A stretch of 64,000 nucleotides of DNA from Siphonodentalium dalli. Lineage: Eukaryota > Mollusca > Scaphopoda > Gadilida > Siphonodentaliidae. The stretch spans positions 93,858,707 to 93,922,706 of the forward strand of contig CP136067.1 of NCBI GenBank assembly GCA_032622095.1. The letters are read 5' to 3'. The translations under genes were made by a program, and so were the position numbers. This document shows, in pieces, positions 49-35,302 of this stretch (position 1 is its first letter; every line of letters begins with the position of its first letter). The notes below the pieces were generated by a model. That model was not told the origin of the DNA and did not search any database. It was given only the letters and a program-made list of their open reading frames with translations.

Positions 49-204
49 GATAGATTTCATCTGATTTGTTAGGGAACCGGTCATTTGACAATATGCCATC
101 TGCCGGGGGGATACATGTCCCCACCATCACGGCACTACGGCGACCCTCAAATGGGCTCTCCACGTCACATATAGATTCTACTGTTCTCATAGAGTTAGCA
201 ACAG
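49..204 (+). CDS. Annexin gene exon 1 (5' UTR 49-92, start codon 93)
   Basis: The exon encodes residues 1-37 and begins the DZANK1-like domain (HVPTITALRRPSNG). The ATG at 93-95 has A at -3, and an in-frame TAG at 51-53 rules out a longer reading in this exon. A good acceptor (tctctttgcag, ending at 48) precedes it, so an untranslated exon probably lies before the window. Only the GC donor at 205-206 (acag|gcaagt) gives the phase exon 2 needs; the GT at 209 does not. Confidence 0.75.
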
Positions 205-3200
205 GCAAGTTATCTCATTGTTGTGACTGTTGTTAATGTGTAGTTGTCAAATTGCTCCATAAATGTTAGATTCTCAGTCTTTTTGATGCTTAGGCTTTAA
301 AGTGATGCACAGTGAATCACTCTGGTAGGGTGATCAAATAGAAATGGAGAATAATCTTGTTCAAAGTAGTTGTTTTACTAAAATAATATGTAAATTGACA
401 ACGCACACCATCATTCTTATATATTAATTAAATGCAGTGACTCTCGATGACGAAATCGTATTCGTTAGTTTATCACCGATATTTGCGTCCCGAATCGAGT
501 AGTAAATATTTACAATTGAGCATAGTTCAGATGATGTTGTCTATGGAGTGGTATGGTCGATTTGCTTGAGATTTTCGACGATGTTAGTAGAATGCTACAT
601 TCACCCAGTTGGCACAACACCTGAATACTAACTTATCAGTTTCACGCACCCGAACAAGTACATAATATGTCTTTAACATTAAATTTTGCACTAATCTTGA
701 GACTCATTTGGTCAAGTTTTTACCATTTTTGAATATGCTGATTAATTAATAGAGGATATCCACACTTTTTCAGTGGATATGGGTTATATCTCATGAGTGA
801 TAACAAAACATTGTATTTCCACGAGTGGAAATTCAAATGTTTTGTCATCACGAATGAGATTTAACCCATATCCACTGAAAAAGTGTGGATATTCTGTTTA
901 TTATATACTTCAATAGTTACTTGCCTATGGCCCCCAATGAATGTCAATACATCATAAATTTCAAGCTGAAATCACTCACTAGTGGGATATCACTTATATC
1001 TCACTGCTAAAACCTTATAATTCATGGGCAAGTATATAATAAACTGGTATACCATCTAAGGACCTAACCCTTTTTATACTAAATGGGTACTCCCACTCAG
1101 CTACAAAAGTGTATATTGGAATTGTCTATTATTCATCCGGAGGGGTGTTCAGGAAAAATAAGCAGACGACAGATAACAAAAGTGCAGAGGAACAAGTCCT
1201 ACTTATTGGAGGGAAATGTTCAGATAATAAGTTCGACAAATGACCTGTGGGATAACTATTAATCTCAATGAGTATTTAGTATAGAATGGGTAAAATAAGA
1301 TATGGTGATAATTTAGAATTTATGACCTCACCCAATTGGCACATCTGTTTTTTTTACCAATGCATTATTATAACATGTACATTTAGAGATGTGATTGTTG
1401 GCAAGGCTTTAAATATTTTGGCCACATGAAATCTCAATGAGTATTTACTATAGAAATGGTAAAATAAGATATGGTGATAATTTTGAATTTATGATCTAGT
1501 GCCCATTGACACTACTGTTTTGTTTTGTTTTTTGCCAATTCATTTGTATGTACATTTATAGAGGTGATTGTTGGCTAGGCTTTAAATATTTTGGCCAGAT
1601 GACATTTTCTTTTGTCTTTTCTAAATAATGGCAAATTTGGCCAGCAATGGCATCCAATTGGAATTTACTTCTTGGGGGTGGTTTGTTGTCATGACTGTTG
1701 TTAACAAGTCTGCAAATAGTGTGTCTTTCATTTGCAGAATGAGGTCCCCAGAGGGTGTATTTAGTGATGCTATCATGCACAATGGGCTAATCAACAAATT
1801 CACCCTAGAGCTGTGAACCTCATTCTGCTTAGGCCTAAATCTTCTGGGAAGTATCTATAGTCTCAAATTTAACATTGTTTTTAGTTACTTTTTCCCTTCT
1901 GGGAAGTTTCTGTATCCCCTAATTTTCAGAAGACAAAATGCATAATCAAGGTGACTAATGGGTGAACTTCACCAACTTCAATTAGGGAAATGCAATCTGA
2001 TCCTACATGTTGGTCTCCCATAGCAGTTGAGGCCTCAACAAAATGAGGTCCCCCATAGGGTGAATTTGATGATGTTAGCCCACAATGTGGGATAGCATCA
2101 CTAAATTTACCCTCTGGTACCTCATTCTGCAAATGACAGACACACTGTGAGTATGTGGAATAATGGCCAATCAGTATGTCAAGACCTGTCTGTGCTTTAA
2201 AATAATTCCTTCCTCCATCCTGTTCCATAAAGAGATTTTTCCCTGATTTACGTAAATCACCATTTAAAATTGCTGTTGCCATACACTGTTATGTAAGTGA
2301 GGTTTGGGACGAATGTCTCAGGGATTACTATATGAATAGTTGTCAAATTGATCCATAAATCTTTGATTCTCAGTCATTTAGTAAAGATTTGTAAGCTAAT
2401 GGAGCTTTCCACAATTTGTCAATCAAATATATATTCTAAATACCATTGTTGTTTGCTGTCAATCAAATAATTATTAACATACGAGGATATATTGCTAATA
2501 ACTTGTAAAATGCATGCTTATTTGTGGGATGTCATACTATTTGTGCTCTCAGTACATGTATAGCTCTCAGTACACATACATGTACTGGTTAAAATGACCC
2601 ATTTATTCAGTTCTATTTCTTTATTTCAGAATCCGATGACTGTAGGATATTCTTCACGACTGACGGGTCAAAGCCAAGCCCTTTCCAACGTAAAATAGGT
2701 GGGCGTGAAGTTACGCACAAATATATCGCTCCTTTTGTGTTGAATTCTGGGAAAAGATGTATAAAAGCTATAGCTGTTACAAGGTCAGTTTTATTCCAGC
2801 ATTTGCTGTGTCTCTTTCCCACAAGGCTGGATATAGTGTGTCTGAGGGTGAATTTAGTTATGCTATCCTGCATAGTTGGCTAGTATCACAAAATTCCCCC
2901 TTTGGGGACCTCATTCTGCTTAGGCCTCATCTTCTGGGAAGTATTTATAGTCTCAAATTAACATTGTTTTAGTTACTTTTTCCCTTCTGTTCAGTTTCAA
3001 TATCCCCTAATTTGCAGAAGATAAAATGCACAATCGAGGTGACTAATGAGTGTACATCACCAACCTCAACTGGGGAACTTCAATCTGATCCTAGGTCACC
3101 AAATAGCAATTGAGGCCAAACTAGAATGAAGTTTCCATCAGATCTACGGGAGACCTAGGATCAGATTAAAGTTCCACAGTTGAAGTTCAATGTTCACCCA

Positions 3201-6200
3201 TTAGTCACCTCGATTATGCAATTTATCTTCTGCAATTTATGGGACATAGAACTTGAACAGAAGGGGAAAAGTTACTAAAAGCAATGTTAATTTGAGACTG
3301 TAGATACTTCCCAGAAGATGAGACCTAAGCAGAATGAGGTCCCCAGAGGTAGAATTTAGTGATACTACCCCGCACAGTAAAAGATTCTTATTTCTTACCA
3401 AAAATATGTCATGTTTGGATGATTTCTTTACTTATTTCGATAGGTCAGATGAGATCAAGTCTATCACTAATTTGTTTTATTATGCCCCGACCCTCTGAAG
3501 GAGGATTCAGAATCAGGAGTATATAGTGGAGACCTCTGTCTGTTCTTCCGTCCTTAACAAACGTTTCACAACACAGCTCAAGCATCGATAGTCCAATTTG
3601 GATGTCCTTTATTATGCCGGTAGACCAGCATTGTGGAAAGGATCTCCACATATTGCAGGTTTTGTTCGCCCTTTTTTTCAAGAGTTATGGCCCTTTGCTG
3701 GACTTAGTATAAAAACGCGTCAATGTGTCCATAACAAACATTATGCTGTGAATGTCTTTATTATTGGATTTTGTTGTCCTCTGGCATGTTGATAGCACTG
3801 ATTGGGGGGATATTTTAGGATATCCACATACTACAGGTTTCGTCCATTAATTTTTACCAGAGTTACGGCCCTTATTTGACTTGGAAATTCATGAATTTTG
3901 TGTCCGAAAGAACATTTCAGTTTGTAACTTGGGCAAGGATCTTCTGACTCAGTTGTGCTTTATGTTGATAGCACAGCTCGGGGGAAAGGATACTGACATA
4001 CTTCATGTTTCATCCATTCATTTTAACAGAGTTACAGCCATTGGTAATTTCTGAATTTTGTCTCTGTATGAACATTTCAACTTGTACCTTGGGCATGAAT
4101 CATCGGATTTTGTTGTGCTTTAATGGTGTATTGATAGCCCAGTTTAAGGGGAAAGGATACCCATTTCTATGATTTAGAAAATCAAAAAAAAAAATCCATC
4201 CATTTTCCACTCTCTAAACTGAGCATTGGGACATATGCCATGCTTAATAAAACACCTGTTGTCTGCCGTGGGTGCTATTTTTCCTCGATGGTGTCTTCTG
4301 AACAGCAACCAGGACTATTGATACCACCTCGGGAAAATACTTCTCACTATCCAGGGCTTAAAATCTGATGAGAATCAGAATCATGATTCTTAGTTTGAAT
4401 CTGTTTGATTCTCGTAAAAGCAGCTGATTTGCTGTAGAAATGCTATATTTTGATTCTCGCAAAATTTTATGAATTTTAAGCCCTGCTATTCTACCCCAAG
4501 GCTGTCAATAGGTGTATACTATTTAATGAAGTGATATCAACATTAGTTTCAGCTGTAGTCAGTCTTTTTGAAATATTAAACATATAATGACACATTTAAT
4601 ATACATAGAATGACATATTTAATAAACATAGCATGATACGTACATTTAATAAACATAGAAAGACACATTTATTGTACATAGAATGACACATTTAATATAC
4701 ATAGGATGACACATTTTTAATTAACATAGAATGACACATTTAATATTCATAGGATTTCACATTTTTAATTAACATAGAATTACACATTTAATTGACATTT
4801 AATTCTTTGACTATTTTTTCTTAGAGATGAGCTTAAGGAGAGTGCTACAGTAACTAAAACATATACCGTCGATGAAATCGGATCAACCACAGATGAATAC
4901 GACAGCTACTTCGAGAGTGAATCAGATTCCACACTTAAGTCCAAATCAGTCAAATTTTCGTCGACATCAGACTCTGATACCAGTTACCGAGATTCTCGGA
5001 AATCTCCTTCAAGGAAATCTCTACGCAGTCGATCTAGGGTGAGTCCAGTTGAAATTATTTCACCTTTTGATATTACCTAGCAACCTCCAGATTACAACAA
5101 CTAAACAATTAATAAATCATAAAATTGATTCTCCCTTTCATTTATACAAGTGTACAATGTTGGAATGACCTATTATTCGTTCAGTGGCGTGTTTTTACAA
5201 TACTAGTGTGGAGGACATAGCAATTTTTTAGCCTTGGCAAATATTTTCTAATTAGCAGCGCTGTTGTTATCATTTCTGGTTATGTGAATTCTCAAAACAA
5301 TACCCTGCTGGACAAAACAAGTGCATGTCCACTTTACCGCGGTGCGGTTAGCTTTGCCACCGCGGCCGAAATGCAACTACACCGCGGCTCCACCGGCTAA
5401 CTAAAGTTGGGCTGTGGTGTACTTGCTGTTCGGTCATGGTGTAGTTGCCGCGGTGTACGTTCATTAAACTGAAAAAAGATGACACAAACCAGAAATCTAA
5501 CCACGGTGTACATGCTGTTCGGCTACGGTGTAGTTCTCGTTCGGTCGTGGTGTACTTGCCGTTCGACCGCAGTGTACTTGCCGTTCGGCTGCAGTGCTCA
5601 ACTGCAGTTACAAACTCTGACACCGCGGCCGAACACATATACACCGCGGTGCCAATGGACACTTGTTTTGTCCAGCGGGGTATGTTACTATCAACCCACC
5701 ACAATAACTTATACCATTTAGCCAGTAATAAGGTAAAATAAACTCCTCTATAAATTTAGCACCTACCGTTTATATATTACATTAACCCTTCCATGTCTGA
5801 AGCTTCCTGAATCTTTTTTAGAAAACCCTGTGCCAAAGCATTCTCTAATATAATTATGAGAGTCTCCCATAGGGAGCTTCACATATCTAAGAGAATACAT
5901 TGGCCTAACAATATTTACCTTGACATTGTAAGCCAGTTCATTCACTTTTGTATGCCAGGCTCCCTCTGCATATATATATAAAAGAATGCACTGGCACAGG
6001 ATCTTTAATGTTGCACCAGCGCAGCTCCCATCATGAAAGGGTTAATGACCTGTGTATCATTCCTGTGATATGTGAATTCTATACACTTTTTCAGTCGAAG
6101 TCACCGTCAAGAAAATTTAAGAATTCAGCACCAAAAGAAGCATGGGCAAGTAATGGATTCCACGACACAAATTCAGGGGCTTTCAATGATACTCCACCAG

Positions 6201-9200
6201 GTTAGTTATTGAACTTGTTGTCCCACAGTGAGCCCCACATAGTGGAGAGCAGACGACACTCAGCAGTACATGGTTCTCTGTGTGTGGGGTTCCATAAGGA
6301 GTTTTTACTTTCACATCACAAATTCAGGGGCTTTCATTAATCAATGATCCTCCACCAGGTTAGTTATTGAACTTGTTATTCCTCAGTGAGCCCCACATAG
6401 TGGAGATCTGTCAACACTCAACAGTACATGGTTAACTGTGTGTGGGGTTCTATTAGGGGCTTTTACTTCCACATCACAAATTCAGGGGCTTTCATTAATC
6501 AATGATCCTCCACCAGGTTAGTTATTGAACTTGTTATTCCTCAGTGAGCCCCACATAGTGGAGATCTGTCAACACTCAGCAGTACATGGTTAACTATGTG
6601 TGGGGTTCTATAAGGAGTTTTTATTCCGCATCACAAATTCAGGGGCTTTCATTAATCAATGATACTCCACCAGGTTAGTTATTGAACTTGTTATCCCACA
6701 GTGAGCTCCACATAGTGGAGATCTGTCAACACTCAGCAGTACATGGTTAACTGTGTGTGGGGTTCTATTAGGGGCTTTTACTTCCACATCACAAATTCAG
6801 GGGCTTTCAATGGTACGCTGGACACCAGGTTAGACCTATTGTATGATTCAGAAGTGGGTCCACCGGGTCTACCCATAACCCGCCCCTGGCATATTTTTTG
6901 TCGTAATCTCAAATTTTTCTTCATCAAAAATAAAAAAAAATTATAGTTCACCGAACCTTGACAGAGTAAGAGAGACATAAATATAATAAATAATCATGTT
7001 CTCTTTTCATCATATAATAATACTGACACAGTTCTATTTTGATTGACCTGACCTATAAATTTAAATTAAAATTGTTATCTTTATCAATCTCATATATTCA
7101 ATCCAGACTTGTTCCCTTCAAGGGGCCTCGGTGGCTCAGTAGGTAAGGGGAAAAACTCCAAGCCGTCTTGCCCTCCAGCGCTGGTGATAAGGGTTCAAAT
7201 CCATATGTTTCCATCATGGACTTTGTAACTCAAAATTGTTATCTGGTGGAGTTGCCAGTTACTCGCTGATGGCCGGTGGTTTGCCGCACATGGCGACGAG
7301 TTTATCAGCCATGAAATCACTGTTATATTAGCCATAAGTGTGCAGATTTCTTCCACCACTAAAACTATGATCTTAGTAGCTGAAAGCAATCAATCAATCA
7401 ATATATTCCCTTCAATTAATTGCTAGTTTGTTCTTATAAGTTGCATCTATTTAGCTGATAACATAAGTTTTTATTTTATTTCCTTCCTTTATTCTTTCAG
7501 CAATGCAGTTACCAGAGGGACCATTCAACCCAACCAATTATTCCGGAACCCAGATTAATGTATGGGGTACCCCTGGAGGGGTATCTAATGGGGCTACACC
7601 CGGAGCCATCATGATTGGTCAGCCGGTCCAGCCAGCATCACCTTATCCAGTGCAATATGGCTACCTAACAGAAAACATGATTGGGGTAGGTTAAATTTTG
7701 TGGGTGGTATCCCGAGTATACCGAGTGTTATGATTCATTATTCCATTAATATGATTTTTTAATATGATTCATTAGCGGCCCTCCATAAATGATTAACCCT
7801 TTACCCAACAAACCAGCCAAAACCGGCCAAATAAAGCTTCAACAGCCTAAAATATCTTCGGTCTGTCTCAATAGAACCATACAAATATGGATATCATTGG
7901 AACCGGCTCCTTGACCACATTGTGATAGTTACAGTTATGCCCTGTGCCAATGCATTCTCTTATATATGCGAGTCGACCATAGGTCGCCTCGCATATATAA
8001 GAGAATGCATTGGCCTAAAAAAAACAACTTTTTTTAACACTTTTTACCATTTTTTCTTACATTCTTTAACAATTTTATAATTTTTAATGTGTTAAGCCAA
8101 TGCATTCTCTTATATATGCCAGGCGACCTATGGTCGACTCACATATATAAGAGAATGCATTGGCACAGGGCCCTTCTGTTGGGTAAAGGGTTAACATGCA
8201 GTCCTCCATCTTTATTAGTGACCCTAGACTTTGTCTCGAGCCTCCAATATTATGTCAGCTAGATTGTAAACTCTTTCATACTGGGAGCTGCGCTGGTGTA
8301 TCATTAAAGATCCTGTGCCAATGCATTCTCTTATATATGCGACTCTCCCATGCATATGGGAGATTCGCATGTATAAGAGAATGCATTGGCACAGGGTTTT
8401 CACAAAAATTTAGGAAGCTCCAGTCATGGAAGGGTTAATTATTTCTGCCTGGATATGCTAATGAAACTGTAAAGCCAGACAGGATCATGTTATGGAGTTC
8501 CGTGGTCCAGTGATTAGTGTGTCGGACTTGTCTTCGAGATGAGTTCGCAGTCCGTAGGTCGTCTATTGTGAGTTTCACACAACAGTGGCTTGGCTGAATT
8601 GAAAAAGATAATCGGTGACTAAAAAATTAAATGGGCCTTTGAAGCCAACTATAATTTTCTATATATCAACTGCCTCTGATCTTAATCCATTTTCTATTTT
8701 TATTAGAAATTGCAGCCTGACAAGCCGGTGACTATGACTGACATGCATAAGTTTCTGGATAAGGGTCTGAGGCCAAAGACTCCGGAGCCAGTGGCTGCCA
8801 TAGAATATAAACAATCTTACGATGACCCACCCCTCAATGCTGTCAGCCCGGGCAATGGTAAGTCAATCATACGATGACCCTCCCCTGAACGCTGTCAGCC
8901 CAGGTAACATTAAGTCAAAGATGCCAGAGCTGGTTGTTTCCATAGAATATAAACAAGCTTATATGATGACTTACCCCTCAATGCTATCAGTCCGGTAAAT
9001 CAAATACTCCAGAGCCAGTGGCTGCATGCCATAGAATATAAACAATCTTAAGACAATCCTCCCCTCAACACTATCAGTCCACGCAACTGTAATTAAAGCT
9101 TACGACGACCCTCCCCTCAGTGCTGTCTGCCCTAGCAATGGTAAGTCAATGACTCCAGAGCCGGTGGCTGCCATAGAATATAAACAATCTTACGATGACC

Positions 9201-27200: not shown

Positions 27201-30200
27201 TGAGTGAGTGAGTTTATTCGGCCCAATGCCCGGGATAGCATAGTAAAGAGCAGAGCCTTATTTCCACTGTGGTCCCGTGAGTCTGATGACTCAAATTTGA
27301 TCCTGTAATTTTGCCTTTTTACCCATGACTTCATCGCCATGGTAGGGTTCTTTAACATGCGCACATTGTTGCATATGGGACAGTCATTAATGTCGGCTCC
27401 CGCTTTGATGGGGTGCCTAGCACAGTGTCATCCCTGGACATGACACCGTAGAGGAGTGGATTTACGAAATGTCTGTTCATGATGCAACTTAGTAGCAAGC
27501 CTCTTAGAAGAAAAAATATATACCCACATCTGTGGGCAATCAGAAATCCTCAGATTTGGTTTTCAGACCAAAGTTTGATTATAGTTAGGTGCCTGGGTGG
27601 ATATGTTCAGCCTTGATAATATGTGATCTAAACTTAGTAATGTTATAAGAACTGTTTGTGTGGTTCGATTACTACCCTGAGTCAGTCTATAATGCTGTTT
27701 GCTGCTGTGGAACTGTGAATTTTTAATGTGTTTTCTTACTATTTTATAGGATTTGGTTAAAGAATTGAAGTCTGAGACGAGTGGTAACTTTGCCACGTTA
27801 TTAGAGGGGTTGTGTTACAGTGCACCTGATTTTGATGCTGTGCAGATCAAGAAGGCTGTTAAGGTAAGGAAGTTCGCATATAGCATACGGTATGAATTCT
27901 CAAGCCATAATTTCCAATTAGCAATATTTGTTCCACGACATTCTGTCAGAGGACTATAGTAATGACCCATTGTCCATCTGGAACTTTGTTCGAGTCTGTA
28001 TACTGTCATTTTTGGTAAAATTTTTTAAAACTTGGCACATATATCAACCAGCATGGGAACCTGCGCACCTGCGATTTTGAGTTCGGTCAGTCTCATTTTG
28101 ACAGAGTTTTTGCCATTTTTTTTACATAATCGTACATCCTGGGACGCATCTTTTGTCCAAGCATGTATTCCGTCATTTTCCAGTCAATTATTTTTAAACT
28201 TGGCACATATGTCAACCAGCGTGGGCACCTGCGCACTTGCGATTTTTAGTTCAGTTGGAGTCATTTATGATTTACTGCCCTTTATCAACCATAAATCCTT
28301 CAAACCTGTCACCTTTGTCAGGGGACATTTTGGTCAGCGACCTTTTATTTGTATAGTAATGGACTTTTCCACATATGTCAATCAAATTATTATTAGCTGA
28401 TATAATCCACCAGTTACTGGCTGAGCAGAATTCTTTGTTTACCTGGTTTACCCTCATTTTTCTGTCTGCATATACAGTAATGTCCTAAATAATCGACTCC
28501 TTAACCACATCAGAATTATGGGTAACTTTTCAGGATTTAGTCGGAAATATGGCTTGTTGCCATTCATTGGAAAGCTCTCAGTGAGAGCTGTCCGATGAAT
28601 GGCAACAAGCCATATTTCCGACTAAATCCTGAAAAGTTACCCATAATTCTGCTGTGGTTAAGGAGTCGATTATTTAGGGCATTACTGTACTTTAGTGTTA
28701 AATTGCCTATTTTCAAACAACTTTTTTGTTGTCAAATCATACTCAAATTTAGATTTGTGCAATAATGTTAGAAATTCATTAATGACCTAATCACCTCGGC
28801 TACAGGGACATCCTTAAAAGGAAGACCTTTCACTGAGAGTTAGGAAGCGTATCAGTCTAATCATGGCTTTGAATAATTGACACAGATCGGATCTACCATA
28901 TTACAGTAATATAAGTTATAGTTGTCTTTTAAATTTCAGGGTCTGGGAACTGATGATCAAGCGTTGGTTGAAGTAATTTGTACGAGGACAAATGACCAGA
29001 TCAAAGCATTCAAAGAGTCCTACAAAAACTGTGAGTTTGATGATAGCATGAAACGAAGCCTGGAAATACGGTAATACTCTAAATAATCGATTCCTTAACC
29101 ACAGCAGAATTATGGGTAACTTTTCAGGCTTTAGTTGGAAATATGGCTTGTTGGCATTCATCGGAAAGCTCTCAGTGAGAGCTTTCCGATGAATGGCAAC
29201 AAGCCATATTTCCGACTAAATCCTGAAAAATTACCCATAATTCTGCTGTCGTTAAGGAGTCGATTATTTAGGGCATTACTGTAACTCATATTTTGGTGCT
29301 GGAAAAAATGACAGGCACCAATTGATCTGCGCTGGTCATTAATAATTATGTGCCTGTCAAATAAATTTTTACAAAATATATGACATATGTGTTATGGGAT
29401 AATTAAGGTATCTAATAAATTAAAATTGTTTGCTAAAACTTAGCAAAAAATGAATTTGATTTTCTCTAATTTGGTTGATATCACTTTCTCACTAATAATG
29501 TTGACTATTTTATATTTTATGAATGTGCTAAATATGGCTTTCAATTAAAATGAGCCCTGGTAATAGGTAAACACCAAAAAAATTGAACACTGAAATACAA
29601 AACTCGCCAAGTTAATGTTTACGTAAACATGTGGTGCGTGTTATTCGAAACCCATACCATTTCAAGCATTTTTTATTTGAGCAAATTATTTTGTCAATTT
29701 TAAAACAAAATGTCAGTATTGTTTTCCCTGTGCATAATGACATGTATATTCAAACTTGATAATGACATGTATATTCAAACATCGGTCATTTGGTCATATT
29801 TGGCTGGTCATTGACCGTGACTGGACGCTAATTATTTCCAGACTTGGAGGAAACAAATTCAAAGAAAATGTAAAGCATATGTTATCAATATTCATAACTG
29901 CAGTACCATTTTGTTGAAAAAAAATTATCATTTATAAATGAAATATCTTTTACATGCACTGCAACTGTTTTTTTTATAAGTCTTAAAATGAACTGGCAGG
30001 ATTGATGCTGGCCCAAAATATTTTGTGTCAGAAACATTTATAATTTTTTCAAACATTTTCCTGGAGTTAATTAATGCCTAATCTTACAATAAAACATGAC
30101 GAGTTTGGATTTTGTGACTATCGAGGTGTAAGTTAAACTTGAGATTGTGGAGCTCACAAAACAAAATATTACTATTTTTCAAATGAACTACACATATTGA

Positions 30201-33200
30201 AAAAAATCATTGTTATCTGTTTGTAGTGTATAGCAAAGAACTGGAGGCTGATGTGTCATCAGATACTTCAGGGGACTTCCGAAAACTACTGGTTGGATTG
30301 CTGCAAGCCAATCGTGATGAAAGTAAAGAGTTTGATAGAAACAAAGCGAAACAAGATGCCAAGGCTCTGCTCGATGCTGGAGAAGCTAAGTGGGGCACAG
30401 ACGAGTCAAGATTTAACGTCATCCTTGTCGCCCGCAGCTACGCTCAACTCAGAGCAACATTCCAAGAATACGCAAAACTAGCCAACAAAGATATTGACGA
30501 TACGATAAAGAGCGAGTTGGGTGGGGATGTTAGGGACGGCATGCTGTCTGTCGGTAGGTTTATATACAGATTTCTTTATTGTTTTTTGTATTATTGTCTT
30601 CATATCAGCCATGAGCAATGGGGGGTTGTGCCACATTGTACTGGGCACACTAAAAGGGTACCTTGCCTTGCACACCGGAAGCAATAAATCATGCTAATGA
30701 TATGCACAGACAATCTACTGTCAGAGTAGTTTTAGAACGGTCAGATAGAGAAATAAAACATGAGGGAAACCCAAAAGACTCAATGTTTAGCAAATGATTT
30801 TTTAAACGTTGTGATCCTACATTATTATTATAGAATTATACACATATGTGTTCTTACTTGTATGTGTAGATGGGGGCACTTGAGTCCCTGATAACATGGA
30901 ACTCAAACCAGAAATAGATTGTATATGTCATTGCCAAGCCTGGAAATGGTGTGTCTGTCATTTGCAGAATTAGGTCCCCAGAGGGGTATATTTATTTATG
31001 CTATCCCGCATAGTGGGCTAGCATCACCAAATTCACCCTCTGGGAGCCTCATTCTGTTCAGGCCTCAATCTTATCTTCTGTAAATTAGGGAATATAGAAA
31101 CTGAACAGAAGGGAAAAAATAACTAAAACAATGTTATTTTGAGACCAGAAGATGAGGCCTAAGCAAAATGAGTAAATTTGGTTATGCTAGCCCATTGTGC
31201 AGGGTAGCGTCACTAAATTCACCCAATGGGGACCTCATTCTGCAAATGTCAAGACATTTTTTCCAGACTTGGTCCTTGCAGTAAAATATATCGCGATGGA
31301 GTCGTGCAATTTCTGTGAATATTAATGACTGGTGCTTCCTGAAATTTTGTGAAAACCCTGTGCCAGTGCATTCTCTTATATATGTGAGTCTCCCATAAGG
31401 AGCCTCACATATATAAGAGATTACATTGTCCTAACAATATTACCTTGATCTTGTAACGCAGTGCATTCTCTTAGATATGCGAGACTCCCTATGGGAAAAA
31501 GTTACTAAAAACAATATAAATTTTTGACTAGATGCTTACCAGAAGATGAGGCCTAAGCAGAATGAGGTCCCCAGAGGGTGAATTTAGTGATGCTAGACTG
31601 CTGTGAGGGGTAGCATCACTAAATTCGCCCTCTGTGGACCTCATTCTGCAAGTTACAGATACACTATTTCAAGGCTTGTCCTGGGCCCACTAAAATGATA
31701 CCATGTCTTACACACCAGAAGCAATATATTCTGCTAATGATGGCATTCTGGCTATCAGTAGGTTTATATATGAATTTCTCATTCCATCTTGCATTTTCAA
31801 AATCTCAAGTGTATTATAATCGATATGTTTATCTTCACCAAAATCAACTTTTCAGATTCGATATGCAATAAACTGATGTATGTTAAAGATGATAACATTA
31901 GAATTTAACCCTTTCATCAGTGGAGCTTACTGAAATTTTGCAAAAAACCCTGTGCCAGTGCATTCTCTTATATATGTGAATGTCCCTTAATCTTATATAT
32001 GCGAGCCTTTGCTAGGCTCCCTATGGGAGACTGGCATATATAAGAGAATGCACTGGCACAGGGTCTTTAACACATTCACTGCTGACACCCATTCAATTAC
32101 ATGCAAAAAGTATGAGATAACTCATAGTAGGCAGTGAAAGTGTTAATGCTGTACCAGTGCGGTTCCTGTCATGAAAGGGTTAAACTATATTTCCTAAGAA
32201 CTGACTAATACATCTTATTTTGTTGACAGTGAGGTGTATTCGCAGCAAATCAACACATTTCGCCACAGAACTCCATAAATCAATTAAAGGCCTCGGTACT
32301 GACGATGATACCCTCGTTAGGATAGTCGTATCCCGTAGTGGTGTCGATATGGTGCAAATTAAAGAAGAATTCCAGAAGAATTTCAAGCAGACACTTGGAA
32401 TGTTCATTAAGGTAGGTAGCAATAAATTGGTACAAGGGAAACAAGGGAGACATACTCAGATTGAAGTTCCTAAAAAGGTGAATGATGTGATGGACACCCA
32501 TTGGGGACCTCGATTATGCAATGTGTCATCTGCCAATTTGGGGATATAGAGAATCTATGTGCAGAAGTTTCTCTAGATATTTTATAATAAAGAAACTTTC
32601 CAGAGAAGATGAGGCCTAAGCAGAATGAGATCCCCAGAGGGTGAATTTAGTGATGCTATCCCGCTATGCGGAATAGCATAACTAAATTCACCCTCTGGGG
32701 ATCTGCAAATGACAGGCACCTTATTCTCAGGCCTGAACAATTTCATAAATGTATTTGCCTTGAGATATTTCGGTGAAGTCACTTTGTCTTCATCAGTCTA
32801 CTGTTGACTTATTGGCTGTCACGTGACCATTTGTGTCGGTCATGTGAGAAACATAAGCAACAACTAACTCCCTAATAACCAAACAGGGAGACGTGACTTC
32901 TTCTAATTTGAAACCTCTAGGCTGGTCCCTGATATAGGCCCATACCCATCCAGATAACATAATTAATCAAGTGCCGATTGATAATTAATTTCTAGGGGCT
33001 TTTGGACACTTGATCTATTTATGTGCTCTTTTTGGTGTTACATAGAAAGTAGACTAAATCAACCAACGTATGATAATTTAACACAATAAGCTTGTTGTGA
33101 CAAATACTGCAGATGTATCAGTCCTATTTCATCACCACCCATCACGATGTCAACACCAAATCAGACCAGCGATATCAACATCGAATCGAATCTTGAATAT

Positions 33201-35302
33201 TTCATATTTACTAAAAAAATAGTCTAAAATAGATCTAGAGGGCATTTGAAGCTAATATTAAGCATTGAGTATTATTCAGTAATTATCGACAGGTGTTTTT
33301 TGAAGTACTAACGAAAACTCTCTCTCTTTGAATAACTCCGATTAACTGCATATAATGCTTTGATATTGGAGAATTTTTCATCAACCTTTTTGGTTATTTT
33401 TTTCAGAAATAGATGCTGAATTGCTTGCGTTCTATAGAGCTCTTATGGATGCAAGTTGGTCTGACATTTTGTGTGGAACACGATACCAAATGTCAAACCA
33501 ACTTGCATCCATATTCTACAGAACGCAACATGGATCCATTACTTATATTTACACTCAACTGGCTGATTAAAAGAGCATTTAGTCCCCATTTCCAATATCA
33601 TTCTTGTAACAATATATGAAAGAATTTAGGGGTCGGCATATGACGTCACATGACAAAATTATTCGACGAACCAACGTCCTGCTGTCATGTTCCACACCAC
33701 GAATGCATGTGTGAGTGTAAATATAACGCATTTTATGACATTTATAGAACCACCATTTATTGCTTAGATAAATGTAGATGAGTTTGTGATATTATGAGCA
33801 TTTCGATGATTTGTTTTGGTATATTATTAATGTTATATATTCATAGGATGACACATCTGGTGACTACAGAAGGGCATTGCTAGCATTAACAGGAGACGAG
33901 GGAATGGTCAAGAAATGTAAGTAGAACATCCAGTTATGTTTGTTGTAAAGGTACACTAGTGTTCCATGTATACATACATGCACATTTATTAATCTCATAG
34001 AAAATTTCCATCTTGCACGTTGCTAATTTGGGTCTGCACGCTTATTTTATTTCTACGTCCACCGGAAACTAATGTCAGTAATGTAATCTCTAAACCACCG
34101 ATTCAGACATTCAGGGACCTGCGTCACTAATGTAATCTCTAAACCGCAGATTCAGATGTTCAAGGCCAGGAACCTACATCACTAATATAATATCTAAACT
34201 GCCGATTCAGATGTTCTGTAACCTTCGTCACTAATGTGATCTCTAAACCACCGAATCAGACATTTAGGAACCTACGTCACTAATGTAATCTCTAAAGTAC
34301 CGAATCAGATGTTCAGGAACCTACGTCACTCATGTCATCTCTAAACCACTGAATCATACATTTAGGAACCTACGTCACTAATGTAATCTCTAAACTGTCA
34401 AATCAGACATTCAAGAACCTATGTTATTAATGTAATCTCTAAACTGCTGATTCAGACATTCAGGAACCTTCGTCATTAATGAACCATCATTTCAGATGTT
34501 CAGGAACCTACATCACTAATGTAATATCTAACCCGTCACTTCAGTCTTTCGGATAGGTGCTATCTGGAATGCATGCAGTGGATGAGCTAGACAGTTGTTG
34601 CAGGAATTATTGTACTTACTAGTGAAGAGAATTATGTGCATTTTACGAACATCTATTAAATGGTCAAGGCGTGTTTGATGTTCAAAATCGGGGCACAATC
34701 CATCCATATTTTCCTTGTAAATTTCAGTAATATGAGTTTTTAATGATTACCAATTTTTGAATATGCATCGTGAATTTCCACAGCTCATGTACTAGTTTAT
34801 CCCGTTAGACAAACGTTTATCTATGTTTGAAACAAATTTAAAATCAGAACCGCTTTGGATTAGAGACATGATTGGCGACATAGGTTTCTGTCCCTGATAC
34901 CTCGTGGGGGTATGCACCTTGTGGGGGGGTATGCACCTCGTGGGGGTTTGCACCGGGCGATAGCCCAGCTCTTGTTTTTTGTTTTTGGTGTACATTGTTA
35001 TTTGCATTTCAAAATTGGGGGAATGTATCATTCTACTAGCATCGCCGAAAATCTCAAAGAAATCGACCATTCAATTCCATAGAAAACATCTCTTGAACTA
35101 TGCTCAATTGTAAATATATACTTCTCGATTTGGGATGCAACTATCGGCGATAAACCAACGCAAATGATTTCGCTATCGAGAGTCACTGCATCGAATTTAT
35201 ATATAACAATGACATTGTGTGTCTAAATTGAGCAAGATTATTCTCCAATTCTATTTTATCACCCCACCGGACTGTTTCACATCACTTTAATTTATTTCAG
35301 AG
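93..35302 (+). CDS. Octa-annexin with DZANK1-type N-terminal domain (24 exons, 1099 aa predicted)
   Basis: I assembled this gene by hand from splice signals and phase. Coding segments are 93-204, 2630-2783, 4825-5038, 6095-6200, 7501-7685, 8707-8857, 10919-11022, 12148-12223, 15147-15407, 17659-17753, 18751-18864, 19403-19493, 20945-21271, 22227-22408, 24098-24176, 25113-25198, 25858-25939, 26317-26411, 27750-27863, 28940-29030, 30227-30553, 32230-32411, 33847-33916 and 35301-35302. They total 3300 nt with every phase matching. Residues 1-108 resemble the DZANK1 N-terminus (TTDGSKP at 47-53). Residues 145-168 are Ser/Arg-rich and 371-415 Pro/Lys-rich. Two four-repeat annexin cores cover about 436-750 and 780-1099. 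Annexins bind acidic phospholipid membranes in a calcium-dependent way. All eight GxGT/KWGT loops and their distal Asp/Glu are present, so calcium-dependent membrane binding is expected. The role of the N-terminal domain is unknown. The annexin identity is very secure; the exact N-terminal joins rest on phase and motif only. Confidence 0.9.
428..600. repeat. Diverged repeat, inverted partner at 35035-35225
   Basis: The stretch from the gcagtgactctcgatgacga region to ttttcgacgatgttagtaga is found, diverged, in reverse orientation at 35035-35225. The two copies sit in the first and last introns of the annexin gene. Confidence 0.7.
756..892. repeat. 137-bp hairpin (MITE-like)
   Basis: atatccacactttttcagtg on the left is mirrored by cactgaaaaagtgtggatat on the right, and the pairing continues to a short loop near 812-824. 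There is no coding content. Confidence 0.8.
1063..1291. mobile_element. MITE, CCCTTTCTATACTAAAT family (degenerate ends)
   Basis: The copy starts taaccctttttatactaaat and ends atttagtatagaatgggtaa. Other copies in the window have TTAA flanks and longer internal similarity, which suggests a piggyBac-type non-autonomous family. Confidence 0.6.
1261..1603. repeat. Tandem duplication, two units of about 171 bp
   Basis: Units 1261-1431 and 1432-1603 both run from atctcaatgagtattta to ggctttaaatattttggcca with moderate divergence. The element is intronic. Confidence 0.75.
1715..2165. mobile_element. CAAGCC-family MITE (double hairpin)
   Basis: It contains gtgtctttcatttgcagaat, then gaggtccccagagggtg, and later the inverted ends ccctctggtacctcattctg and caaatgacagacacac. 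The layout matches the better-bounded copies at 36072-36222 and 40223-40478. Confidence 0.65.
2630..2783 (+). CDS. Annexin gene exon 2: core of the DZANK1/CHB_HEX-like domain
   Basis: The exon encodes residues 38-88, including RIFFTTDGSKPSPFQRKIGG and the strand CIKAIAVT. The TxDGSxP motif followed by KxxAV is the signature of the chitobiase/Fn3-associated fold at the DZANK1 N-terminus. Splice sites are ttatttcag at 2621-2629 and gtcagt at 2784. Confidence 0.8.
2822..3385. mobile_element. CAAGCC-family MITE, long form
   Basis: It runs from caaggctggatatagtgtgt through ggggacctcattctgcttag to a second partial hairpin near 3330-3380. It starts 38 bp after the exon 2 donor. Confidence 0.6.
3560..4190. 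repeat. Degenerate tandem repeat, roughly 165-bp units
   Basis: Phrases such as agagttatggcccttt, agagttacggccctta and agagttacagccat recur with aacatttca and ggggaaaggata. A related stretch lies at 40840-41105. It probably derives from an older interspersed element. Confidence 0.5.
4580..4800. repeat. Minisatellite, about 28-bp units
   Basis: Units of the type acatagaatgacacatttaa repeat about eight times just upstream of the exon 3 acceptor. Confidence 0.75.
4825..5038 (+). CDS. Annexin gene exon 3: end of N-terminal domain, then Ser/Asp- and Ser/Arg-rich stretch
   Basis: The exon encodes residues 89-160. RDELKESATVTKTYTVDEIG continues the DZANK1-like strand pattern. An acidic Ser-rich stretch and an RS-rich tail (SPSRKSLRSRSR) follow, probably disordered and open to phosphorylation (inference). 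The donor is gtgagt at 5039. Confidence 0.8.
5301..5682. mobile_element. GC-rich MITE with TA flanks
   Basis: The ends are perfect or near-perfect inverted repeats: ctggacaaaacaagtg on the left and cacttgttttgtccag on the right, both next to TA. The interior is rich in ccgcggtg motifs, so its GC content is far above the surrounding intron. Open frames here are by-products. Confidence 0.8.
5782..6045. mobile_element. piggyBac-type MITE, palindromic GCATTCTCTTATATATG family
   Basis: The element is bounded by ttaacccttccatg and catgaaagggttaa, giving TTAA flanks and CCCTT termini. The interior carries paired short palindromes around ctcccatagggag. It ends 49 bp before exon 4. Confidence 0.75.
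6095..6200 (+). CDS. Annexin gene exon 4: basic low-complexity linker
   Basis: The exon encodes residues 161-195, opening with SKSPSRKFKNSAPKEAW. The acceptor is ctttttcag (ending 6094) and the donor gttagt at 6201. The last part of this exon with its donor is tandemly copied into the following intron. Confidence 0.75.
6122..6830 (+). repeat. Array of exon 4 tail plus donor, about 157-bp units
   Basis: The exon 4 tail acaaattcaggggctttca recurs starting near 6322, 6480, 6637 and 6795. Each copy is followed by a copy of the donor ccaccag|gttag (GT at 6201, 6359, 6517, 6674 and 6829). Spacing is 151-158 bp. The copies drift, and only the first is coding. Confidence 0.9.
7122..7402 (+). mobile_element. 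tRNA-derived SINE with (AATC)n tail
   Basis: An A box (tggctcagtagg, 7132-7143) and a B box (ggttcaaatcc, 7192-7202) sit at tRNA-like spacing. A non-tRNA body follows, ending in caatcaatcaatcaata. No acceptor stem or cloverleaf closes, so it is not a tRNA gene. Confidence 0.75.
7501..7685 (+). CDS. Annexin gene exon 5: Gly/Pro/Asn-rich linker
   Basis: The exon encodes residues 196-257 (PEGPFNPTNYSGTQINVWG and PVQPASPYPVQYGYLTEN). Such Pro/Gly/Tyr-rich tails occur before the cores of ANXA7 and ANXA11, but no direct homology is claimed. The acceptor is ttctttcag (ending 7500) and the donor gtaggt at 7686. Confidence 0.75.
7793..8194 (+). mobile_element. piggyBac-type MITE, CCCTTTACCCAACA family
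   Basis: TTAA at 7793-7796 precedes CCCTTTACCCAACA, and TGTTGGGTAAAGGG precedes TTAA at 8191-8194. It contains two long palindromes with cttatatatgcgag arms. A nearly identical copy lies in reverse at 21345-21744. Confidence 0.9.
8266..8438. mobile_element. piggyBac-type MITE, palindromic family (left end degraded)
   Basis: It holds one palindrome (tgtgccaatgcattctctta with its mirror) and ends catggaagggttaa. Confidence 0.65.
8490..8690 (+). mobile_element. tRNA-derived SINE
   Basis: The A box is tggtccagtgattag (8503 onward) and the B-box-like sequence agttcgcagtcc (8542-8553). The downstream body shares cacaacagtggcttgg with the element at 18470. It ends just before exon 6. Confidence 0.6.
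8707..8857 (+). CDS. Annexin gene exon 6: linker with KTPEPVAAIEY motif
   Basis: The exon encodes residues 258-307, including MTDMHKFLDKGLRPKTPEP and AAIEYKQSYDDPPL. The donor is gtaagt at 8858. The 3' half of the exon plus this donor is the source of the 90-bp array in the next intron. Reading past the donor meets TGA at 8875. Confidence 0.75.
8778..9765 (+). repeat. 90-bp array of exon 6 tail plus donor
   Basis: The exon 6 tail (ccagtggctgccatagaata to the donor) is repeated about ten times. Regular 90-bp copies run from 9141 on, with gtaagtca at 9141, 9231, 9321, 9411, 9501 and 9591 and one more near 9682. The earlier copies are decayed. The regular copies stay in one frame (KTPEPVAAIEYKQSYDDPPL) for 129 codons at 9149-9538, but the frame from exon 6 is closed at TGA 8875. 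Confidence 0.93.
9835..10289. mobile_element. piggyBac-type MITE, palindromic family with expanded centre
   Basis: The bounds are ttaaccatttcatgg and catgaaagggttaa. Between the palindrome halves lies a T-rich repeat of cattttttcttacattcttt (about 9950-10160). Confidence 0.7.
10461..10855 (+). mobile_element. TTTAAAG-ended interspersed element, about 390 bp
   Basis: It runs from ttaaagatgcatgatccaaa to gattgagtacctttaaa. Relatives lie at 19613-20010, 20525-20855, 38345-38780 (reverse), 43044-43320 (reverse) and 51560-51700 (reverse). No protein is encoded. Confidence 0.75.
10919..11022 (+). CDS. Annexin gene exon 7: first half of an unrecognised module
   Basis: The exon encodes residues 308-342, with an amphipathic helix-like run (DFKEQLLHIYAHMLEHAKS) and then RLSVAKPKIGK. 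I do not recognise the family. With exon 8 it forms a compact unit of about 60 residues. Splice sites are aattccag (ending 10918) and gtaagg at 11023. Confidence 0.7.
11401..11559. mobile_element. Long hairpin MITE with TA flanks
   Basis: aggattaactgtcatgtgga is mirrored by tccacatgacagttaatcct, and pairing is almost complete to a loop at acccgaagggt. TA lies at both outer ends. Confidence 0.85.
12148..12223 (+). CDS. Annexin gene exon 8: second half of the unrecognised module
   Basis: The exon encodes residues 343-367 (MLEGQFLDDGDCFKLSVVMA). KLSVVMAKPG echoes RLSVAKPKIG in exon 7, which hints at a beta-hairpin (inference). Splice sites are tttctacag (ending 12147) and gtgagt at 12224. Incoming and outgoing phases both fit. 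Confidence 0.7.
12560..12960. mobile_element. CAAGCC-family MITE, long form
   Basis: Two hairpins built from agagggtgaatttngtgatg and its complement flank a spacer. Outer ends are ccttgaaatattgtgtctgt and cctatttcaaggcttg. Confidence 0.75.
13362..13600. mobile_element. piggyBac-type MITE, palindromic family (truncated right end)
   Basis: It starts aacccttcatgacgggagct and contains two palindromes around gcattctctcatatatgcga. The right terminus is lost. Confidence 0.6.
14691..14800. repeat. Hairpin of about 110 bp
   Basis: ttgatattattggcctgata and taacctcatatcag pair with ctgatatgaggtta and ggcctaatatcaa, with a loop near cgaccttcgg. Confidence 0.7.
14884..15100. mobile_element. TA-flanked long-hairpin MITE (CAGTAATGCCC family), copy 1
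   Basis: The ends are TA-cagtaatgccctaat and its mirror gggcattactg-TA. The arms pair through gcttgttgccattcatcgga to a short centre. TA flanks and a CAGT start suit a Tc1/mariner-type origin. It ends 46 bp before exon 9. Confidence 0.88.
15147..15407 (+). CDS. Annexin gene exon 9: Pro/Lys-rich linker and start of annexin repeat 1
   Basis: The exon encodes residues 368-454. It runs from a PPPPKPKPKP linker into the start of the first annexin core (FNAEQDAECLKKAMKGL). The donor is gtaagc at 15408. The intron interrupts the first calcium loop (KGL|GTD), as it does in exon 17 of the second core. Confidence 0.88.
15391..15620 (+). repeat. 57-bp array of exon 9 tail plus donor
   Basis: The unit gctatgaaaggcctaggtaa followed by gcccttaatgtgttgatttt recurs four times. 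Donors are at 15408, 15465, 15522 and 15579. Each unit also holds an acceptor-like tttactcag, enclosing 27-nt potential microexons at 15438-15464, 15495-15521 and 15552-15578. Confidence 0.93.
15832..16436. mobile_element. Mutator-like non-autonomous element with 9-bp target duplication
   Basis: Inverted ends of about 45 bp (cagtctctttgaa... and ...ttcaaagagactg) are flanked by the same 9 bp, tacaaatga, at 15823-15831 and 16437-16445. A 9-bp duplication with long terminal repeats suits a MULE origin. A diverged relative lies at 43330-43860. Confidence 0.85.
17235..17320. mobile_element. CAGTAATGCCC MITE, copy 2 (internal deletion)
   Basis: The TA-flanked ends are intact but only the outer arms remain, fused at agcagaattctgct. 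It forms a perfect short palindrome. Confidence 0.88.
17659..17753 (+). CDS. Annexin gene exon 10: repeat 1 calcium loop and helices
   Basis: The exon encodes residues 455-486 (GTDEDMITNILPYRSNTQRQ). It supplies the GTD of type II site 1. Its 95-nt length and phases equal those of exon 18 in the second core. Confidence 0.93.
17757..18012. mobile_element. piggyBac-type MITE, palindromic family
   Basis: The bounds are gttaacactaccatgtctgg and catgaaagaattaa. Two palindromes sit around tgcgagttgcc and tgcgaggcttcc. It starts four bases after the exon 10 boundary. Confidence 0.7.
18313..18384. repeat. Short minisatellite, 19/38-bp units
   Basis: gaggtgtctgagtgatgagg and gaggtacctgagtgatgagg alternate. 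The array is intronic. Confidence 0.85.
18470..18700 (+). mobile_element. tRNA-derived SINE
   Basis: The A box is tggtctagtggttagcgc (18480 onward) and the B-box-like sequence gagttcacagccc (18518-18530). The body includes catgtggcttggtcaatt. It lies just before exon 11. Confidence 0.7.
18751..18864 (+). CDS. Annexin gene exon 11: end of repeat 1 to start of repeat 2
   Basis: The exon encodes residues 487-524 (IKALEGELSGNFLDTCKAL). The Glu of GELSGNF is the distal ligand of calcium site 1. Its 114-nt length and phase match exon 19. Confidence 0.93.
19317..19402 (+). pseudogene. Broken duplicate of exon 12 (acceptor plus 5' half)
   Basis: tttttatcacgcagggcgtg copies the acceptor and start of exon 12, spelling GVGTDDDVLIEMLYT. 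A TGA then stands where the working exon has CGA. The true acceptor follows at 19402. The copy has no donor. Confidence 0.9.
19403..19493 (+). CDS. Annexin gene exon 12: repeat 2 calcium loop
   Basis: The exon encodes residues 525-554 (GLGTDDDVLIEILCTRSNAQ). Its 91-nt length and phase match exon 20. A damaged copy of its acceptor and 5' part lies just upstream at about 19317-19390. Confidence 0.92.
19613..20010 (+). mobile_element. TTTAAAG-ended element
   Basis: It starts tttaaagatgcataatccga and shares cccaaattactattt, gaagatggataactctaaaa and gttgactgcggttagcatta with the copy at 10461. Confidence 0.75.
20255..20450 (+). repeat. Minisatellite, about 36-bp units
   Basis: tatatttcaatggattatgt with short joining pieces recurs five to six times. 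A 102-bp unremarkable stretch separates it from the next element. Confidence 0.85.
20507..20855 (+). mobile_element. TTTAAAG-ended element next to a short copy of the exon 13 acceptor
   Basis: atctcagaatataac at 20507-20521 resembles the acceptor and first bases of exon 13 (tttcagaatataac at 20939-20952). An element copy of about 330 bp follows to gattgagtacctttaaag. Confidence 0.6.
20945..21271 (+). CDS. Annexin gene exon 13: repeat 2 end and repeat 3
   Basis: The exon encodes residues 555-663. It contains SDTSGSYKKLMVGLLQANR (Asp ligand of site 2), KKWGTDESRFN (site 3 loop) and KSEFSGN (Glu ligand of site 3). Its 327-nt length equals that of exon 21, and the two peptides are strongly similar. 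Confidence 0.96.
21345..21744 (-). mobile_element. piggyBac-type MITE, CCCTTTACCCAACA family, reverse copy
   Basis: TTAA flanks lie at 21345-21348 and 21741-21744. Read in reverse it is nearly identical to 7793-8194, including gcttcaacagcctaaaatat. Confidence 0.9.
22227..22408 (+). CDS. Annexin gene exon 14: repeat 4
   Basis: The exon encodes residues 664-724, including MKGMGTDDDTLVRICVSRC. Length (182 nt) and phases equal those of exon 22. Splice sites are tattacag (ending 22226) and gtaagt at 22409. Confidence 0.95.
22456..23225. mobile_element. Nested piggyBac-type MITEs
   Basis: A CCCTTTCTATACT-type copy (22456-22690) is broken near atgatgctttaa and resumes at about 23150 (ttattatctgaatatttcct to tttagtatagaaagg). 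Inside lies a degenerate CCCTTTCAGTGCCA-type copy, and inside that a palindromic GCATTCTCTTATATATG unit at 23025-23103. Confidence 0.65.
24098..24176 (+). CDS. Annexin gene exon 15: end of first core
   Basis: The exon encodes residues 725-750 (DDISGDYQKVILSLVTGG), which supply the Asp ligand of site 4. It ends one base into a codon, exactly as the last long coding exon (exon 23) does. Confidence 0.92.
24305..24420. mobile_element. CAAGCC-family MITE fragment
   Basis: It runs from catttgcagaatgagttatc to ctctggggacctcattctgc, as a single hairpin. Confidence 0.65.
24731..24970. repeat. Tandem duplication, two units of about 120 bp
   Basis: tttgtataaatgtaccgcaa to tttcgggacctgagaaacgc occurs twice with small changes. 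Confidence 0.9.
25113..25198 (+). CDS. Annexin gene exon 16: charged linker between the two cores
   Basis: The exon encodes residues 751-779 (ATKLKTEEELDEEVRMESEE), a highly charged, probably helical connector. It has no counterpart in the first core. Splice sites are ctatacag (ending 25112) and gtaaga at 25199. Confidence 0.85.
25213..25530. mobile_element. CAAGCC-family MITE, long form
   Basis: Two hairpins (25220-25310 and 25405-25505) are joined by a spacer with ggagacctaggatcagattg. The right end is aatactttcaggcttg. Confidence 0.7.
25858..25939 (+). CDS. Annexin gene exon 17: start of repeat 5
   Basis: The exon encodes residues 780-806 (FDVETDCEVLKKAMKGF). It is the counterpart of the C-terminal part of exon 9. 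The donor is gtaggt at 25940. Confidence 0.92.
26018..26250. mobile_element. piggyBac-type MITE, palindromic family
   Basis: The bounds are tttaaccattccgtgactgg and catgaaagggttaa, with two partial palindromes between. Confidence 0.7.
26317..26411 (+). CDS. Annexin gene exon 18: repeat 5 calcium loop
   Basis: The exon encodes residues 807-838 (GTDEKAIITCLCYRSPEQRV). Its 95 nt and phases equal exon 10. Confidence 0.94.
26805..27120. mobile_element. piggyBac-type MITE remnant with triplicated palindrome
   Basis: gaggctcactatgggagact and its neighbours occur three times, joined by acaaggtcaaggtaaatatt. The right end is catggaagggttaat. Confidence 0.65.
27178..27450 (-). repeat. (GTGA)n-tailed interspersed repeat, SINE- or LINE-end-like
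   Basis: A gtgagtgagtgagtg tract (27179-27213) is followed by a body with cccaatgcccgggatagcat and ggttctttaacatgcgcaca. The simple tail on one side suggests retroposition read on the minus strand. Confidence 0.55.
27750..27863 (+). CDS. Annexin gene exon 19: end of repeat 5 to start of repeat 6
   Basis: The exon encodes residues 839-876 (VKELKSETSGNFATLLEGL). The Glu of SETSGNF completes site 5. Its 114 nt equal exon 11. Confidence 0.94.
28030..28265. repeat. Degenerate direct repeat of about 165 bp
   Basis: aaacttggcacatat.tcaaccagc.tggg occurs at 28028 and 28196 with similar downstream text (cctgcgcac.tgcgattt). Confidence 0.7.
28473..28689. mobile_element. CAGTAATGCCC MITE, copy 3
   Basis: It is a TA-flanked long hairpin of 217 bp, upstream of exon 20, with arms as in copy 1. 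Confidence 0.9.
28940..29030 (+). CDS. Annexin gene exon 20: repeat 6 calcium loop
   Basis: The exon encodes residues 877-906 (GLGTDDQALVEVICTRTNDQ). Its 91 nt equal exon 12. Two near-identical 217-bp palindromic MITEs lie in the introns on either side. Skipping this exon would shift the frame. Confidence 0.94.
29067..29283. mobile_element. CAGTAATGCCC MITE, copy 4
   Basis: It is a TA-flanked long hairpin of 217 bp starting 36 bp after exon 20. With copy 3 it brackets that exon. Confidence 0.9.
30227..30553 (+). CDS. Annexin gene exon 21: repeat 6 end and repeat 7
   Basis: The exon encodes residues 907-1015. It contains SDTSGDFRKLLVGLLQANRD (Asp of site 6), AKWGTDESRFN and KSELGGD (site 7). 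It is 327 nt, as is exon 13. The donor is gtaggt at 30554. Confidence 0.96.
30945..31260. mobile_element. CAAGCC-family MITE, long form
   Basis: It starts ggaaatggtgtgtctgtcat, has hairpins near 30970-31050 and 31165-31240, and ends cattctgcaaatgtcaagac. Confidence 0.65.
31325..31680. mobile_element. Palindromic piggyBac-type MITE fragment fused to CAAGCC-family fragment
   Basis: 31330-31495 carries tgtgccagtgcattctctta palindromes. It breaks at ccctatgggaaaaagttact and continues as a CAAGCC hairpin (31550-31675) ending gatacactatttcaaggctt. Confidence 0.65.
31905..32183. mobile_element. piggyBac-type MITE, palindromic family
   Basis: TTAA at 31905-31908 precedes ccctttcatcagtgg, and catgaaaggg precedes ttaa at 32180-32183. 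It ends 46 bp before exon 22. Confidence 0.8.
32230..32411 (+). CDS. Annexin gene exon 22: repeat 8
   Basis: The exon encodes residues 1016-1076, including IKGLGTDDDTLVRIVVSRSG. It is 182 nt with the same phases as exon 14. A piggyBac-type MITE ends only 46 bp before it. Confidence 0.95.
32600..32715. mobile_element. CAAGCC-family MITE fragment
   Basis: gagggtgaatttagtgatgc is mirrored by gcataactaaattcaccctc. Confidence 0.7.
33424..33528. repeat. Hairpin of about 105 bp
   Basis: ttgcgttctatagagctctt and ggatgcaagttggt pair with accaacttgcatcc and tctacagaacgcaa. Confidence 0.8.
33847..33916 (+). CDS. Annexin gene exon 23: C-terminal end of second core
   Basis: The exon encodes residues 1077-1099 (DDTSGDYRRALLALTGDEGM then VKK), supplying the Asp of site 8. 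Spliced to 35301, the last T joins AG to make a TAG stop. If the intron is retained, the reading is KKCK then TAG at 33923-33925. Confidence 0.9.
34070..34545. repeat. Minisatellite, about 52-57-bp units, in the last intron
   Basis: taatgtaatctctaaaccac and cattcaggaacctacgtcac alternate about nine times with divergence. Confidence 0.85.
35035..35225. repeat. Diverged repeat, inverted partner of 428-600
   Basis: gaaaatctcaaagaaatcga, ctatgctcaattgtaaatat and atcgagagtcactgc are the reverse complement, with drift, of the stretch in intron 1. It ends just before exon 24. Confidence 0.7.

Follow-up and report, generated by a model that had tools for sequence, protein, structure and literature searches.

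The stretch of DNA analysed here, referred to as the window, comprises 64,000 nucleotides of the Siphonodentalium dalli genome (positions 93,858,707-93,922,706 of contig C7, in an assembly of 2.23 Gb and 9 contigs). Its plus strand carries, between positions 93 and 35302, a predicted gene of 24 coding exons (Table 1), with a coding sequence of 3300 nt including the stop codon, no internal stops and a product of 1099 amino acids. The initial annotation had proposed that an N-terminal domain is joined in phase to eight annexin repeats, and this is borne out by the single reading frame that runs through the 24 exons and by eight stretches of the Pfam annexin family PF00191 (E 5.2e-183). Splice borders were set by eye around two runs of annexin exons, which a crude scan placed at approximately 15356-24148 and 25888-33888, and around the exons proposed in the initial annotation, whose limits of 49-204, 2630-2783 and 15147-15407 are compatible with the rebuilt gene model. 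The acceptor is AG in all 23 introns and the donor is GT in 22 of the 23, the exception being GC in the first intron. The start codon is the ATG at position 93, and the TAG stop is split between 33916 and 35301-35302.

Table 1. Predicted coding exons of the fusion gene, with positions in the window
Feature	Positions	Strand	Encoded part and remarks
Exon 1, coding part	93..204	+	Residues 1-38, start of DZANK1-type domain; GC donor
Exon 2	2630..2783	+	Residues 38-89, core of Fn3_assoc/CHB_HEX_C_1 domain (TTDGSKP)
Exon 3	4825..5038	+	Residues 89-160, end of Fn3_assoc/CHB_HEX_C_1 domain, then Ser-rich part
Exon 4	6095..6200	+	Residues 161-196, linker
Exon 5	7501..7685	+	Residues 196-257, Gly/Pro-rich linker; candidate LC8 motif SGTQIN (210-215)
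Exon 6	8707..8857	+	Residues 258-308, second DZANK1 block begins (PPLNAVSPGNG)
Exon 7	10919..11022	+	Residues 308-342, second DZANK1 block
Exon 8	12148..12223	+	Residues 343-368, second DZANK1 block ends
Exon 9, junction	15147..15407	+	Residues 368-455, Pro/Lys-rich linker and start of annexin repeat 1
Exon 10	17659..17753	+	Annexin core 1
Exon 11	18751..18864	+	Annexin core 1
Exon 12	19403..19493	+	Annexin core 1
Exon 13	20945..21271	+	Annexin core 1
Exon 14	22227..22408	+	Annexin core 1
Exon 15	24098..24176	+	End of annexin core 1
Exon 16	25113..25198	+	Linker between cores
Exon 17	25858..25939	+	Start of annexin core 2
Exon 18	26317..26411	+	Annexin core 2; equals exon 10 in length
Exon 19	27750..27863	+	Annexin core 2; equals exon 11 in length
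Exon 20	28940..29030	+	Annexin core 2; equals exon 12 in length
Exon 21	30227..30553	+	Annexin core 2; equals exon 13 in length
Exon 22	32230..32411	+	Annexin core 2; equals exon 14 in length
Exon 23	33847..33916	+	End of annexin core 2
Exon 24, coding part	35301..35302	+	Finishes the TAG stop; remainder would be 3' UTR

The 5' end of the gene probably extends beyond the window. Exon 1 contains an in-frame stop 5' of its ATG and is preceded by an acceptor-like AG (47-48), and because it starts directly after this AG a further 5' exon is likely to lie outside the window. Another version of exon 1 (MPSAGEIIAPQITPI...LIQLST) was found 1310 to 1191 bases 5' of the window (L010; C7:93857397-93857516). 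It is identical to exon 1 at 18 of 37 positions, has the same phase and the same GC donor, and is likewise preceded by an acceptor-like AG; over 20 kb on the 5' side, no duplicate of exon 2 was found at E values up to 1. The simplest reading is that the two versions are alternative first coding exons, which would probably endow the protein with two different N-terminal faces.

The introns contain several kinds of repeated sequence. The 3' end of exon 6, donor site included, is present within intron 6 (9099-9751) in approximately seven copies of 90 bases arranged in tandem, and the 3' end of exon 9, again with its donor, forms a tandem array of approximately four 57-base copies at 15388-15626 that runs into intron 9. 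Just 5' of exon 12 (19323-19388) the beginning of that exon is incompletely duplicated, in a copy that contains a stop codon. Palindromic repeats of the CCAATGCATTCTCTTATATATGCGAG type and the CATTCTGCAAATGACAGACAC type were spotted by eye in the introns (examples are at 2100-2150, 7970-8165, 13500-13580, 21380-21600 and 23020-23100), and look like short hairpin mobile elements. On the minus strand of the window, a fragment of a gene resembling poly(A) polymerases occupies 56053-56526, with a palm domain of the MTPAP-like type (E 2.6e-8); at 45006-45965 there is a frame of 319 residues that has no match in Pfam or in the PDB.

The two annexin cores

The annexin repeats form two complete four-repeat cores joined by a linker, an architecture shared with annexin A6 (PDB 1m9i, 1avc), which is also what residues 368-1099 match best in the PDB (E 1.6e-169). 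The two cores are identical to each other at 182 of 308 positions (59%), whereas either core is 45-47% identical to either lobe of annexin A6, and the two lobes of A6 agree at 148 of 307 positions (48%). Orthology with annexin A6 was rejected on these figures; since the cores are nearer to each other than to the A6 lobes, the four-repeat core is, judging by identity, doubled independently of annexin A6. A further difference is that annexin VI as represented in the PDB (672 amino acids) offers no space for a DZANK1 part, since its annexin core, with which the match opens, starts as early as residue 10.

Five internal exons are of equal length in both cores (95, 114, 91, 327 and 182 nt). Vertebrate annexin genes have exons of 95, 114, 91, 80, 57, 94, 96, 59 and 123 nt, and the merger of 80+57+94+96 on the one hand and of 59+123 on the other would yield exactly the exon lengths of the fusion cores.

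Calcium sites of the GxGT-(38)-D/E type are retained, in that GT and an acidic cap 38 positions further on are present in all eight repeats; the full GxGT occurs in six of them, repeat 3 of each core having KWGT. By analogy with known annexins, each core would be expected to bind calcium and membranes, and the presence of two cores on one chain could permit membranes to be bridged. Weak Pfam matches to Myb_DNA-bind_7 (E 1.9e-5, within the annexins), Fer4_Nqo3 and Leu_zip fell below the cut-offs and were set aside.

Kinship of the N-terminal half with DZANK1

Residues 33-102 match the Pfam families Fn3_assoc and CHB_HEX_C_1 with bit scores above the Pfam cut-offs, at E values of 1.2e-9 and 3.6e-6 respectively when the whole protein is searched. 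Residues 1-108 alone, in which a DZANK1-type domain had initially been recognised, return both families above the cut-offs at 3e-11 and 2.2e-8. When residues 1-436 were compared with PDB sequences at E values up to 10, there were two matches, of which one is due to chance (E 0.5) and the other is DZANK1 (11xu chain G1, 752 residues; E 3.7e-27). This similarity falls into two blocks: residues 3-106 of the fusion align with 2-104 of 11xu (i-E 6.2e-16), and residues 291-353 with 461-523 (i-E 1.1e-7), a position that precedes the ankyrins of DZANK1. Both are collinear with DZANK1, the spacing between them being shorter in the fusion. Hence the kinship claimed for the N-terminus holds and is wider than was claimed, the second block being new.

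DZANK1 has zinc ribbons and ankyrins, whereas the fusion has neither and carries annexins instead. There are four Cys in residues 1-440, CxxC is absent from the fusion protein, and Pfam Ank was not found in it at E values up to 10. The ankyrins of a separate DZANK1 encoded elsewhere in the genome have no match on either strand of the window, and that protein as a whole matches exons 1, 2 and 7 only, apart from one chance match (E 7.7). A zinc ribbon concealed in an intron was considered and rejected, paired CxxC being absent from the plus strand of positions 1-27000. Zinc ribbons and ankyrins therefore seem to be truly missing from the locus and not just unannotated.

The separate DZANK1 is on contig C2 (L009:4531-6462). 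A search of the genome with the N-terminal 370 residues of the fusion gave 16 matches, 14 within the span of the fusion gene (six of these being the exon 6 copies in intron 6) and two on C2. The C2 gene is a single intronless frame of 644 residues from Met, which carries an Fn3_assoc-like block, the second block, in the same order as in the fusion, and ankyrins. It matches PDB DZANK1 over residues 1-279 and 307-636 (E 1e-100). Pfam detects no zinc-ribbon family in it at E values up to 1; in the alignment to PDB DZANK1 one CxxC...CxxC ribbon is retained and the cysteines of the preceding ribbon are lost. Mouse Dzank1 has at least 20 exons according to the exon numbering used in PMC4910986, so the intronless gene is probably a derived copy. 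It looks as though a retrocopy had taken the place of a gene with introns, or as though the gene itself had shed its introns.

For the first and second blocks respectively, the fusion is identical to the C2 protein at 44/102 (43%) and 23/68 (34%) positions, and to PDB DZANK1 at 45/102 (44%) and 23/66 (35%), while the latter two proteins agree with each other at 52/101 (51%) and 41/66 (62%). The fusion is approximately equidistant from both DZANK1 proteins, as would be an old or fast-changing paralogue; its DZANK1 part does not seem to have been copied recently from the C2 gene.

Evidence for a single fusion gene

The gene anatomy and the domain matches, taken together, go far beyond what chance would explain. 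Coding potential was assessed with a codon score trained on annexin exons 10-23 and the frame of the separate DZANK1, as against intron triplets. Across exons 1-9 the predicted frame scored best in 9/9, and the same score was reached by 0.00-4.6% of 4000 length-matched random stretches of intron, although the score penalises stops, so that openness accounts for part of the signal.

Whether the two halves belong to one gene turns on exon 9. The part of this exon before its first Met (a Pro/Lys-rich linker with 50 scored codons) has a score matched by 0.1% of random intron stretches, and an in-frame TAA (15140-15142) is situated directly 5' of the acceptor; together, the coding score and the stop imply that the frame of exon 9 needs an upstream exon. 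Exon 8 ends in the phase that exon 9 requires, a fit that chance alone would give in one case in three. These features of exon 9 are the main evidence, indirect in kind, and favour a single gene. We consider it likely, from the sequence as it stands, that the locus is one fusion gene, consisting of a front half from a DZANK1 paralogue and an annexin with an independently doubled four-repeat core.

A variant that is compatible with this explanation, and which is possible if somewhat doubtful, is that the fusion is real and that a plain octa-annexin is also made from an internal start in exon 9, leaving the DZANK1 part optional. The first Met of exon 9 is positioned as in an ordinary annexin start, and the second version of exon 1 upstream suggests that the gene has an alternative 5' end.

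It is distinctly unlikely that two adjacent genes are present, a short DZANK1-like gene ending with exon 8 and an eight-repeat annexin beginning at the exon 9 Met. That Met (FEMETEN) does sit where an ordinary annexin would start, but exon 9 scores as coding ahead of it, in a frame that the stop before the acceptor shows must come from upstream and with which exon 8 is in phase. It also speaks for two genes that read-through of the exon 8 donor would meet a stop after two codons and that intron 8, which contains ten polyadenylation-signal hexamers, is the longest of the gene at 2923 bases; however, intron 1 is not much shorter (2425 bases), and such hexamers would be expected in AT-rich introns.

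Still less probable, to the extent that we give it very little weight, is that the fusion is a relict, either a silent or decaying gene or an assembly join. Introns 6, 9 and 11 contain tandem or incomplete duplicates of exon ends, which would suit such an origin, but the frame is unbroken over 24 exons, the first nine of them with coding bias in the predicted frame, the calcium caps are kept in 8/8 repeats, and the locus is internal to one 212 Mb contig. Finally, the notion that the N-terminus amounts to a generic Fn3-associated domain without kinship to DZANK1, for which it could be said that Fn3_assoc and CHB_HEX_C_1 are both broad families, is scarcely credible, given that the DZANK1 match starts from the second residue of that protein, ahead of the Pfam domain, and that the second block matches where Pfam has no family.

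A possible calcium-switched adaptor

Annexins combine a uniform calcium- and membrane-binding core with unique N-terminal regions that set their partners (PMC10882027). An annexin with a DZANK1-type N-terminus was not found in the openly licensed literature, represented mostly by titles and the beginnings of abstracts; in PMC8754002 and PMC5533585, DZANK1 occurs in the reference list only. DZANK1 itself is described as binding NINL via its zinc ribbons, as associating with DYNLL1/2, and as located at basal bodies and microtubules (PMC4617706). Since NINL binding maps to the zinc ribbons, which the fusion does not have, this interaction should be gone. We found no function in the literature that has been mapped to either of the DZANK1 blocks retained in the fusion.

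A mode of action can be proposed tentatively for the fusion protein. A rise in calcium would cause the two annexin cores to bind or bridge acidic membranes, while the DZANK1 half, held on a long, flexible Ser/Pro/Lys-rich arm, would retain partners of DZANK1 other than those bound by the zinc ribbons. The best candidates for these partners are the dynein light chains DYNLL1/2, which might be bound through an LC8-like motif. The outcome would be a calcium-switched adaptor that connects vesicle or ciliary membranes with the dynein/basal-body machinery. The adaptor scheme as a whole is an uncertain conjecture, somewhat less likely than not; its DYNLL step is rather unlikely.

DYNLL-binding motifs are described in two classes, [K/R]xTQT and GIQVD (PMC3078936), and many TQT peptides are reported to fail to bind (PMC6607443). 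PDB DZANK1 has the sequence IGTQTVGLFYP, and the C2 protein, between its two blocks, VATQTVGLFYP, from which we infer that this TQT could be the DYNLL site of DZANK1. The fusion similarly has a TQ[T/I] element between the blocks, GTQIN at 211-215 (in the context YSGTQINVWGT), but the elements are not aligned with each other: in a MAFFT alignment the GTQI of the fusion is not opposite the TQT of DZANK1, and it lies 86 residues before the second block as against 35 for TQT. The motif has Ile at +1 instead of Thr/Val, and TQ[TIV] occurs in 7% of shuffles of residues 110-290. It is a weak LC8-like candidate.

A more elaborate proposal, and something of a long shot, is that the protein is a dedicated calcium-gated dynein adaptor. 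It would consist of the half of a second DZANK1 that lacks zinc ribbons and binds light chains, with an independently doubled annexin replacing the ankyrins; calcium would pick the membranes destined for the dynein/basal-body route, and the alternative first exons would tune the DZANK1-type face. On this proposal, the survival of the intronless DZANK1 would have freed the intron-bearing locus.

The nearest working analogue is annexin A11, which tethers RNA granules to moving lysosomes (PMC10882027). In both annexin A7 and annexin A11 a long arm ahead of the core sets the partners (PMC10882027), as is envisaged for the arm of the fusion. These arms are described respectively as proline-rich (PMC10634317) and phase-separating (PMC10882027) and, in the excerpts of those sources, not as part of another gene, which is where the fusion differs. 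Both proteins are taken to be four-repeat annexins, since the same review, in the part drawn upon here, names only A6 as having eight.

In the fusion, the N-terminal region of an annexin would be a recognisable half of another cell-biological protein, DZANK1, and as such it predicts which machinery the annexin reaches. Conversely, the DZANK1 half, separated from its zinc ribbons and ankyrins, would serve as a natural test of the function of this half. The doubled core would represent a second, independent origin of an eight-repeat annexin beside annexin A6. If transcripts confirm the fusion, it may prove to be a calcium-switched membrane adaptor, built in part from DZANK1, which has links to dynein and to the ciliary base.
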